Assembly: GCF_000215085.1 (NCBI RefSeq)
Contig: NC_015589.1
Location: forward strand, 1,426,001-1,490,000
Length of the DNA: 64,000 nucleotides
Source of the DNA: Desulforamulus ruminis DSM 2154
GTDB lineage: Bacteria; Bacillota; Desulfotomaculia; Desulfotomaculales; Desulfotomaculaceae
Reading direction: 5' to 3'
A program made the translations under genes and the position numbers. The notes under the pieces were generated by a model. That model made no database searches and had not been told where the DNA came from. It saw only the letters and a list, made by a program, of their open reading frames with translations. Shown one piece after another: positions 59,753 to 63,027 of the stretch. Each line of letters begins with the position of its first letter. The first letter of the stretch is position 1.

Positions 59753-59927
59753 GTGGTCCGAGGTATTTTTCTACCAAAAGGCATTGCACCCTGGGATCCT
59801 GGGCATAGAATGCGATGAATGAAATTGGATATATTAAAATCACTTAAAATTAATATTTATAATGATAAGAATATCTATAAAGACCACGTAAGTATATATA
59901 ACTCAACTTCCGAAAGGAATGGTATGT

Positions 59928-60302
59928 ATGGAAATCAAAGTGGATCATAAGAACGGTTCAAAAGTGGCGATTATCATAAGTGACGATATTGTTATTAATA
60001 ACGTGAATGATGCGTTAGATTTACTTGCAGTTGTCCATTATGATAACGGGTGTGAAAAAATGCTTGTGAAAAAAGAAAATATAAATGACGATTTTTTTGA
60101 ACTTAAAACAGGGCTTGCGGGTGAAATTTTGCAAAAATATACGAACTATCATATGAAGATTGCTATTGTCGGGGAATTCGAAGGCTATAACAGCAAAAGC
60201 CTGAACGATTTTATTTATGAATGCAATCAAGGGAATAACGTGTTCTTTAAGAGAACATCAGCGGAAGCACTGGCTGAACTTCATGGGCTTAAGCCTGTCT
60301 AA
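59928..60302 (+). CDS. DUF4180 domain protein
   Basis: Protein of 124 aa from the ATG at 59928 (AAAGGA 9 nt upstream; an ATG at 59919 is too close to that site). It has the family pattern FFELKTGLAGEILQKYTNY and KIAIVGEF ... SKSLNDFIYECNQG. The function of DUF4180 is not established. Monocistronic. Confidence 0.88.
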   Translation: MEIKVDHKNGSKVAIIISDDIVINNVNDALDLLAVVHYDNGCEKMLVKKENINDDFFELKTGLAGEILQKYTNYHMKIAIVGEFEGYNSKSLNDFIYECNQGNNVFFKRTSAEALAELHGLKPV

Positions 60303-60487
60303 TAAAGTCTTTCCATACATACTCGGACATACCCAATAAGTATGAGGTAATCACAAGTTGTGCGCGTCACTTGTGAATTTATCCTGCAGGCATTAAAATA
60401 ATAGTAAATATGTAACATGTACACCGATTTTTTCTATAGCAAACGTTATTTCAATTTGATGCATTATCTATAAAAGGAGGGTTCTTT

Positions 60488-60802
60488 ATGCAATGTCCTG
60501 CTTGTAATCAACAGATTCAAGACGAATTTAAATTTTGTCCGCACTGTGGCCATAAAGTAAATAATACTTGCTCCGGGTGTGGGAAAAATTTGCAGCCGGA
60601 ATGGGTTACCTGTCCCTATTGCGGTCTGGCTGCCAAAGGACAGGGAACTGCACAGCCGCTGCCTCCCCAACCTCCTCAAAAGCCTCAATACTCACAACAT
60701 CCTCCGACCTATCCATCCGGTCATCGGGATTATCATTCCGGTTCGTCGGGTCGTTACCGTAAACGGAAAAAAGGTTTGTTTGGCAGTTTTTTTTCCTCTT
60801 AA
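60488..60802 (+). CDS. Double zinc-ribbon protein
   Basis: Protein of 104 aa. C3, C6, C17 and C20 form one zinc ribbon, C28, C31, C42 and C45 a second. A Pro/Gln-rich linker and a basic tail (RKRKKGLFGSFFSS) follow. AGGAGGG lies before the ATG. Its stop (60800-60802) is 5 nt before the TTG of the kinase gene, and the final codons contain a run of eight T that could let ribosomes slip into the kinase frame (see the slip-site entry). Confidence 0.85.
   Translation: MQCPACNQQIQDEFKFCPHCGHKVNNTCSGCGKNLQPEWVTCPYCGLAAKGQGTAQPLPPQPPQKPQYSQHPPTYPSGHRDYHSGSSGRYRKRKKGLFGSFFSS
60787..60794 (+). other. T8 run, candidate -1 frameshift site
   Basis: Eight T in the zinc-ribbon frame as agT-TTT-TTT-T. A -1 slip here gives a frame that is open from 60763 and runs without stop into the kinase, which would make one zinc-ribbon/kinase protein of about 365 aa. 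Alternatively the run is an indel-prone spot and the kinase starts separately at TTG 60808, without a visible ribosome-binding site. Confidence 0.4.
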
Positions 60803-60807
60803 AATCA

Positions 60808-61593
60808 TTGTCGCCAATCAACGGATATTATGTTGATACGCTGATTGGCGGCGGCAGTTACGGAGTGGTGGTAAGAGTCCGTAAAGCGAACCGTTATTAT
60901 GCTATGAAGGTATGTTCCGATGAATTCCTGCGGCAAAGTCTGCAGGTGTCTTGTACCGCCGCTGATTTATGCCGCCGGGAAGCGGCGGTCCTAAAGTGCA
61001 TCCGTCACCCGGAGATTCCCGGTTATATTGATTGCTTCCGGCATAAAGATTTATTTTGCTTAGTGGAGGATTATATACCCGGCCATACACTGGCAACAAC
61101 AATGAATAACGGCTGCTGCTACCGGGAAGAGGAAGTAAAGAAAATTATCTTAAAATTGCTCTTGATCCTGAATTTCCTTCATACTCCCACTGCTCGGAAA
61201 CCTGCTATCATTCACCGGGACTTGCGTTTATCCAACCTGATTATGGAGGATGAGCGCCTTTTTCTAATCGACTTCGGCCTAGCGTACCGTATACCAAATC
61301 ACCATGATATGAAATTATTGTCCCAATGCCGGACTGTCAGATCGGCGGCCAATGCTTCACCCTCTTATGTTGAAAAACGAAATGATTTTTCCCTACAAAG
61401 CGATTTGTTTGGCGCCGGGGTGGTGGCAATTGATCTTTTTACTAATTCCGTTGTATCGGATAATACCATACCCTGGGAACAGAAAATTCCGGTTTCTCTA
61501 CCGTTTAAATCGTATATCCGGAGACTGTTGGGGGTTGAGAGTGGGTTTGGGTCGTGCCTTGAAGCAATTGAACATTTGCGTTCCCTGGTCTAG
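60808..61593 (+). CDS. Eukaryotic-type Ser/Thr protein kinase
   Basis: Protein of 261 aa from the TTG. Glycine loop GGGSYGVV (14-21), lysine K34 (AMK), catalytic loop HRDLRLSNL (H136-D138, N143) and DFGLA (155-159) are all present, so it should be active. There is no membrane segment and no PASTA domain, unlike PrkC. The C-terminus is short. It follows the zinc-ribbon gene closely and either starts by re-initiation or is translated as a frameshift fusion. Confidence 0.85.
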   Translation: MSPINGYYVDTLIGGGSYGVVVRVRKANRYYAMKVCSDEFLRQSLQVSCTAADLCRREAAVLKCIRHPEIPGYIDCFRHKDLFCLVEDYIPGHTLATTMNNGCCYREEEVKKIILKLLLILNFLHTPTARKPAIIHRDLRLSNLIMEDERLFLIDFGLAYRIPNHHDMKLLSQCRTVRSAANASPSYVEKRNDFSLQSDLFGAGVVAIDLFTNSVVSDNTIPWEQKIPVSLPFKSYIRRLLGVESGFGSCLEAIEHLRSLV

Positions 61594-61695
61594 TGTGGAA
61601 GCAGAATACCATCCTGTTGGAAGGCCGTATCTATATCCTTACTGAAAGGAAACATTCTTAAGTAGATGGAAATATTTGGGGAATTTTATAATGAG

Positions 61696-61734
61696 AGCTG
61701 CTCCACATCGCTATGCTGTGAAGCAGCTTTTTTT
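61696..61734 (+). terminator. Rho-independent terminator after the kinase gene
   Basis: AGCTGCT (61696-61702) and AGCAGCT (61722-61728), with an inner CACAT/ATGCTGTG pairing, followed by a T-run. It lies about 100 nt past the kinase stop. Confidence 0.85.
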
Positions 61735-61884: not shown

Positions 61885-62010
61885 CATTATTTTGTTCCTA
61901 ATCAGAAACAAGAACCCCCATAAAATAGCAATTATTTTACTTTAAATGCCATAAGTGCTTATTTTTAAAGAAATATAATGAAATCGTTTACATTAAGGTG
62001 GGCTTATAAA

Positions 62011-63027
62011 ATGTCTAAACCAACCATTGAGGATGTAGCAAAATTAGCTAAAGTTTCAACGGCCACAGTGTCTAGGGTTATAAATAAACAAGGTGGCGTT
62101 CGGAAAGCCACCGAAGAGCGTATTGCCAAGGCGATCAGTCAGCTAGATTATATCCCAAACGCGGTGGCCAGAAGTATGGTCAAGAAGACAACCAAGACCA
62201 TTGGGGTAATCATTCCGGATATCAATAACCCGTTCTTTCCGTTAGTTGTATCAGGGATAGAGCAGCAGGCCAGGGAAAAAGGCTATTTTACTGTTCTTTG
62301 TAACACAAATGAGTCCCCTGAAATTGAAAGGGAATTAACTCAAATCCTGCTGGAAAGAAGTGTTGACGGCTTAATCGTTACAACTGCCGATGAGGATGGA
62401 AAGCAACTTCAATCTGCCATTGACCGAGGTATTCCCATTGTTGCGGTGGATAGAGCAATTAAAAGTTTTGAGGTTGATACCGTTTTAGTGGGCAATATTG
62501 ATGGTGCCTATCAAGCAACAAGACATTTGATCTTACAGGGTCATAAAAGAATTGCCATTATCTGTGGTCCCCAAAATACAACTCCGGGATATGAGCGTTT
62601 TGTTGGTTTTAAGAAAGCGTTGGAAGAATATCAGATTCCTTTACCCGAAGATTTAGTGCTGGAAGGGGATTTTAAGGAAGAAAGCGGCTTCAAGCTGACC
62701 CAAAAGTTGTATTCAATGCAGGAACGGCCTACAGCCATCTTTTCATCAAATAACCTGATGACTGTGGGTTGTGTAAAGGCCGTTATGGAGACCGGGTGGC
62801 AGATGGGAAAAGAATTAGCCTTCATCGGTTTCGATGATGTTGATATTGCCACTTTTGTTACCCCTTCTCTATCTGTGGTTTCAAGGCCCATGAGACAGTT
62901 GGGGGAGCTGGCGTTTGATATTCTTTATGAAAAAATGACCAGTACAGGTGAATGGGTAAGGCGGCACTATGTTTTATCCCCGGAATTAAAGATAAGGCAA
63001 TCATGTACCATTAAAAATACAAATTGA
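62011..63027 (+). CDS. rbsR: LacI-family regulator, probably ribose repressor
   Basis: Protein of 338 aa; the ATG at 62011 is chosen because AAGGTGG lies 9 nt upstream and LacI homology begins with MSKPTIEDVAKLAKVSTATVSRVINK. An upstream ATG at 61978 would overlap the second operator half. The periplasmic-binding-like sugar domain fills the rest (GVIIPDINNPFFPLV, LEGDFKEESG). The ribose link is inferred from rbsD and rbsA, which follow. Confidence 0.9.
   Translation: MSKPTIEDVAKLAKVSTATVSRVINKQGGVRKATEERIAKAISQLDYIPNAVARSMVKKTTKTIGVIIPDINNPFFPLVVSGIEQQAREKGYFTVLCNTNESPEIERELTQILLERSVDGLIVTTADEDGKQLQSAIDRGIPIVAVDRAIKSFEVDTVLVGNIDGAYQATRHLILQGHKRIAIICGPQNTTPGYERFVGFKKALEEYQIPLPEDLVLEGDFKEESGFKLTQKLYSMQERPTAIFSSNNLMTVGCVKAVMETGWQMGKELAFIGFDDVDIATFVTPSLSVVSRPMRQLGELAFDILYEKMTSTGEWVRRHYVLSPELKIRQSCTIKNTN

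Follow-up and report, generated by a model that had tools for sequence, protein, structure and literature searches.

Two genes or one is the question raised by a locus of Desulforamulus ruminis DSM 2154 (Bacillota, Desulfotomaculia), where the reading frame of a small zinc-ribbon protein is directly followed, in the −1 frame, by that of a protein kinase. We studied it within a stretch of 64,000 nucleotides (contig NC_015589.1, positions 1,426,001 to 1,490,000), hereafter the window; coordinates are counted from its first letter, and the parts of the locus described from 60473 to 61734 lie on the forward (+) strand.

Layout of the locus

The upstream gene is preceded by a strong Shine-Dalgarno sequence (AAAGGAGGG, 60473..60481), and GGAGG-type sites also precede the zinc-ribbon genes of its relatives. 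It spans 60488..60802 and encodes a double zinc-ribbon protein of 104 aa (Pfam DZR PF12773, E 4.7e-12, residues 3-46), ending at a TAA (60800..60802). Abutting this stop is a conserved basic and amphipathic tail, RKRKKGLFGSFFSS (60758..60799), which reads RKGFLGRLFSS in the family, and within the same segment lies a run of eight T (60787..60794) whose first seven letters form a slippery heptamer, T TTT TTT, in frame (60787-60793). The −1 frame is free of stops from 60763 to 61593, its first part, upstream of the kinase (60763..60807), reaching back into the zinc-ribbon gene. The first ATG, GTG or TTG in this frame, and the sole possible kinase start ahead of the ATP loop, is the TTG at 60808..60810, located 5 nt 3' of the zinc-ribbon stop and preceded by CCTCTTAAAATCA, a sequence without a Shine-Dalgarno motif. 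Counted from this TTG, the kinase ORF covers 60808-61593 and its product would begin with (M)SPINGYYVDTLIGGG...; reached by a −1 slip, the Hanks-type kinase segment would run from 60793 to 61593 (Pfam Pkinase PF00069, E 6.6e-31). A preliminary description of this DNA had already pointed out the T8 run, the −1 frame open from 60763 and the TTG devoid of a ribosome-binding site, all of which we confirmed in the sequence; it had also proposed a zinc-ribbon/kinase fusion of about 365 aa, a size that becomes 368 aa when computed from a slip on T TTT TTT.

A predicted terminator-like hairpin with a T tail, GCTGTGAAGCAGCTTTTTTT, was found by consensus scan 3' of the kinase (61715..61734). The neighbouring genes encode a DUF4180 protein (59919-60302) and a LacI-type regulator (61978-63027); judged by eye over 11 homologue loci, no neighbour was common to them, and an Rfam search returned no match.

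One has to be careful with such a layout, as T8 runs by themselves are ordinary (four were seen in the 64-kb window for about 1.5 expected from base composition), and a short open −1 frame is likewise not remarkable; it is the homologue evidence that places the window layout above chance. A sequencing or run-length error at the T8 is unlikely, because the genome is finished (one contig of 3,969,014 bp) and was published, under the name Desulfotomaculum ruminis DSM 2154, with 221-fold coverage and a stated error of less than 1 in 100,000 (PMC3569383).

Homologues and the conserved UGA

Relatives of the gene were found by an alignment-based search of contigs, a single-sequence search of genome contigs having given no match. 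The gene was not found in the 8 other genomes examined from the window organism's genus; it is present in other families of the Desulfotomaculum class and, in a patchy manner, elsewhere in the phylum (Bacillota, several classes). Carriers include Pelotomaculum propionicicum MGP, Heliophilum fasciatum DSM 11170, Candidatus Formimonas warabiya DCMF, whose genome is complete, and a metagenome-assembled genome of Dethiobacter alkaliphilus. Viral contigs contained no relative and plasmids only distant kinases, while scanning the class twice more and the phylum a second time added no new member. The resulting table holds 21 intact members with an in-frame UGA; two other members, the window and L072 (UBA5324, a metagenome assembly), have the kinase in the −1 frame. 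No description of the gene turned up in the part of the literature that our search covered.

In all 21 intact homologues, the zinc-ribbon frame ends in ...GFLGRLFSS, with small variations, followed by TGA and then, in the same frame and without any further stop, by the kinase; the TGA falls in one single alignment column, with the kinase directly behind it in frame 0. Outside the class, the output of the whole-genome search independently listed "1 TGA" within each of the four fused matches. This uniformity departs from the stop usage of the same loci, where TGA closes 25 of 100 ORFs of at least 150 aa, and from that of the kinases themselves, whose own stops are TAA in 9 members, TAG in 6 and TGA in 6. 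At a 25% background, the chance of finding UGA throughout is roughly 2e-4 to 1e-6, a rough figure that assumes an estimated six to ten independent lineages; because the members are related, the raw counts overstate the independent evidence. The base after the UGA is a purine in all members, A in 19 and G in the other 2; a U at this +4 position has been linked with tighter termination in bacteria (PMC5289835). A leak of about 6% at UGA in a wild-type B. subtilis reporter is quoted from Karow et al. in PMC7918605.

Two further family members are clearly broken (L027/L070 and L034/L073). In L070, from Desulfotomaculum sp. UBA7919, frames are shifted in both parts and FSS-TGA-KEH still lies in one frame; in L073, an internal deletion leaves MQCPG followed directly by the C-terminal half of its kinase.

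Start codons and constraint across the junction

A kinase translated as a separate gene needs a start codon, and ATG, GTG and TTG are all absent upstream of the ATP loop in 17 of the 21 UGA-type members; the other 4 have one 13-14 codons after the UGA. Four members (L015, L019, L021 and L028) are also devoid of the near-cognate codons ATT, ATC, ATA and CTG within 50 codons. We then have the constraint on the junction itself: over 41 pairs whose kinases share 60% identity or more, pN/pS is 0.24 for codons +1 to +12 after the UGA, 0.25 before the UGA and 0.30 in the kinase. As the value between the UGA and codon +12 matches those of the flanking domains, these codons appear to be translated and selected as protein. 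Since the kinase stands in frame 0 behind the UGA in 21/21 members, the bypass would be UGA readthrough; judging from these alignments, it is the usual route in the family, and ribosomes must pass the stop. By comparative criteria, we thus take the conserved recoding to be real.

The preliminary description had suggested a recoded zinc-ribbon/kinase fusion made beside the short protein, and the homologues without a kinase start codon strongly support this part. It had attributed the fusion to a −1 frameshift, which is not the general route in the family, given the frame-0 kinase of the 21 homologues of the UGA type. For the window, the frameshift is supported by UBA5324, which has the same −1 layout, T TTT TTC and no start codon, even if the TTG of the window still permits a restart. 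It had also held that homologues with two separate genes, each with its own ribosome-binding site, would speak against a fusion; such sites occur only in distant outgroup kinases (~25-40% identity), which have their own starts, and not in the family.

The −1 variant in the window and UBA5324

The junction of the window, TTT TTT TCC TCT TAA AAT CAT TG, closely parallels that of L028, TTT TTT TCC TCT TGA AAG GAG: its TAA stands where the relatives keep UGA and resembles TGAAAA less one base, so that the window layout may be explained by a TGA turned into TA-A, with one base fewer and the kinase thereby in −1. UBA5324 reads CGT TTT TTC TCC TAA, also with the kinase in −1, and its −1 frame is open for 82 nt 5' of the stop. 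Its first start codon is met 65 nt beyond the stop and already falls within the ATP loop, which leaves the kinase without a usable start; a complete kinase could, thus, only be made there through a −1 shift. The sole evident slip site is T TTT TTC, whose codons are equivalent to those of T TTT TTT in the window. Both −1 members have, ahead of the stop, an X XXY YYZ site in frame, through which the −1 frame is open, and the heptamer T TTT TTY is found in 2/2 members of the −1 type, against 1/21 of the UGA members (p 0.012 by Fisher's test, a value that ignores kinship). As an AU test does not reject a single clade of the window and L072 (p 0.145), these two members may represent one event. Beside the UBA5324 gene, we observed by eye a TIR-like stretch, FISFNTAELDWADWIAWLLEERG, in the ORF 5' of it (L072:1983-2462).

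It is from the layout of UBA5324, without a start codon, that a −1 slip becomes likely in the window, and we hold it to be the better bet there. RNA polymerase slippage on the T8 is also possible by analogy; bacterial polymerases are known to slip efficiently at 9 T or A (PMC5009743). As to the T run, whose conservation the preliminary description had put forward as a check, L072 has T TTT TTC at the equivalent codons, and L028 has a T8 with the kinase in frame 0 behind TGA. We accordingly do not retain the T8 as a signal of the family, L028 carrying the identical run.

Could a downstream RNA structure stimulate the slip? The window has a predicted hairpin at 60809..60853, with a main stem of 12 bp (60809-60820/60842-60853), about 15 nt behind the heptamer and covering the TTG. 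It folds at −28.9 kcal/mol (z −2.78), and 1 in 200 shuffled sequences was as stable. No hairpin was found in L072, and folding of the aligned family junctions revealed no RNA structure common to them; a downstream hairpin as general stimulator, strong in the window and absent from L072 and the family, was therefore discarded. Among the species examined, this hairpin is peculiar to that of the window, where, on the folding model, it could hinder a restart at the TTG, help slippage, or both.

Weighing the alternatives

For the window, the simplest alternative is that of two coupled genes, in which ribosomes stop at the TAA at 60800 and restart at the TTG at 60808 without any frameshift. The 5 nt between them are short enough for translational coupling, the kinase domain is complete when begun at the TTG, and the distant outgroup kinases are coupled to an upstream small gene, with an ATG at or over its stop. 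The TTG, however, has no Shine-Dalgarno and lies at the foot of a hairpin that is predicted to be stable, and neither the −1 relative L072 nor 17/21 of the UGA relatives offers a start before the ATP loop; a restart is conceivable in the window, though we rate it well below an even chance. In the UGA species, a similar idea would have the kinase begun at non-AUG codons right behind the stop. Many members do have ATT or ATC at codon +6, but the position is not conserved, L015, L019, L021 and L028 have no such codon near the stop, and the protein-level constraint already covers the codons from the UGA to +12, which makes this idea quite improbable. One could also imagine a decaying pseudogene with meaningless broken frames, given the two broken members and the long branch of the window in the tree; a gene-wide pN/pS of 0.24-0.30, kinase residues that are intact throughout the alignment, for the window as for the others, and a single interruption, a TGA at the identical codon in all 21, render decay the most improbable of the explanations that we considered.

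The exclusive use of UGA in the 21 members naturally brings selenocysteine to mind, inserted through SelB and tRNA-Sec. selA is present in 7 of the 9 genome entries tested, and selB in 109/113 genomes of the class, above the cut-off, a frequency at which it does not discriminate. When the aligned junctions were folded, no conserved, SECIS-like stem-loop was found behind the UGA, no homologue has Cys at the UGA position, and there is no redox motif. Moreover, Heliophilum carries the UGA form, yet two copies of its genome (G161 and G498) give no selA match, and the highest tRNA-Sec score in it, 47.3 bits, is about what ordinary serine tRNAs give, where the top matches of other carriers reach 61-74 bits. 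Without a shared structure behind the UGA, and with a carrier that has neither a selA match nor a tRNA-Sec scoring above the serine tRNAs, selenocysteine coding was rejected as very improbable, and the same two observations speak for ordinary UGA readthrough.

Proposed mechanism and protein products

Taken together, the explanation that we find probable as a whole is that of one recoded gene, not two, with UGA readthrough in most of the family and a −1 slip in the window. The zinc ribbon would be translated from its strong ribosome-binding site; a majority of ribosomes would terminate behind ...FSS, yielding the short protein, and a minority would bypass the stop and produce the zinc-ribbon/kinase fusion. 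In most members, the UGA would be read by a near-cognate tRNA, probably tRNA-Trp. In the window and UBA5324, the bypass would most likely be a slip by −1 at the run of U before the stop, giving the 368-aa fusion in the window, where the slipping agent may be the ribosome or an RNA polymerase adding a U within the T8. The occurrence of the bypass, its efficiency, the inserted residue and the function of the products are what we infer here.

The short form consists of the double zinc ribbon, a linker rich in Ser, His and basic residues, and the basic amphipathic tail; the long form adds the Hanks-type kinase. The Gly residues of the ATP loop, K, HRD, N and DFG are all there in every member aligned, the window among them, so that the fusion carries all invariant catalytic residues and is a putative Hanks-type kinase. 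In an AF2 model of the L014 fusion, built with W at the UGA, the kinase is mostly confident and the zinc-ribbon and linker part poorly determined (mean pLDDT 67.7); a helix (98-108) spans the UGA residue with low confidence. Searched with this model, Foldseek matched eukaryotic and bacterial kinases. The zinc ribbon is likely an abundant targeting or zinc-responsive module, only a fraction of which would carry the kinase; the latter would be a soluble enzyme held or controlled by the zinc- and His-rich module and present in smaller amounts than the free zinc ribbon.

Relation to known systems and significance

Stop-codon readthrough of cellular genes is known from Drosophila and mammals, and the present case resembles it, with a stop within a conserved frame, protein constraint beyond it and two predicted products. 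To our knowledge, long-conserved UGA readthrough other than for selenocysteine has rarely been documented in ordinary bacterial chromosomal genes. In-frame stops in bacterial genes have been judged mostly short-lived (PMC7918605, the text of which mentions neither kinase nor zinc); unlike those cases, a single UGA has here persisted at an identical codon in several classes, where it links two domains that are each complete. The −1 members are reminiscent of programmed −1 frameshifting and transcriptional slippage, as in dnaX and IS elements (PMC5009743), by their T TTT TTY before the zero-frame stop and their longer −1 product, but they differ in the run itself (T8 in the window, T6C in L072), in having no conserved stimulator, and in belonging to a family that mostly uses UGA.

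As for the kinase, its fold and catalytic residues are those of bacterial Hanks-type Ser/Thr kinases (PF00069) such as PrkC/Stk1, from which it differs by an N-terminal double zinc ribbon across a recoded junction and by its size, ~260 aa versus 620-630 aa for the PrkC-like kinase of the same genomes. Clostridial "GEGRYG" kinases (L033, L078, L098, L104, L107 and L125) also have a small His-rich or zinc-ribbon gene directly upstream, but start at their own ATG (GTG in L125) placed over the upstream stop, AGTTCATGGTC..TAA. Several of the upstream His-rich genes in these six loci end in SSWS* and overlap the kinase start, an arrangement that suggests tight translational coupling. The existence of such ordinarily coupled related layouts is what makes the loss of the start codon in the present family notable. 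The kinases of L031 and L032 have a similar N-terminal zinc ribbon, but in one uninterrupted ORF.

What we describe is one UGA joining two full domains across several Bacillota classes, with two members swapping in a frameshift layout. Under standard annotation, the gene would be broken in two and the kinase would lose part of its ATP loop, and similar cases elsewhere may be overlooked for this reason. More tentatively, the kinase may be made through recoding only, the family having switched between UGA and −1 modes because the bypass itself is selected, with kinase dose as a sensor of translation termination. If so, the dose of kinase would report on termination efficiency, that is, on the level of RF2, on charged tRNA-Trp or on stress.
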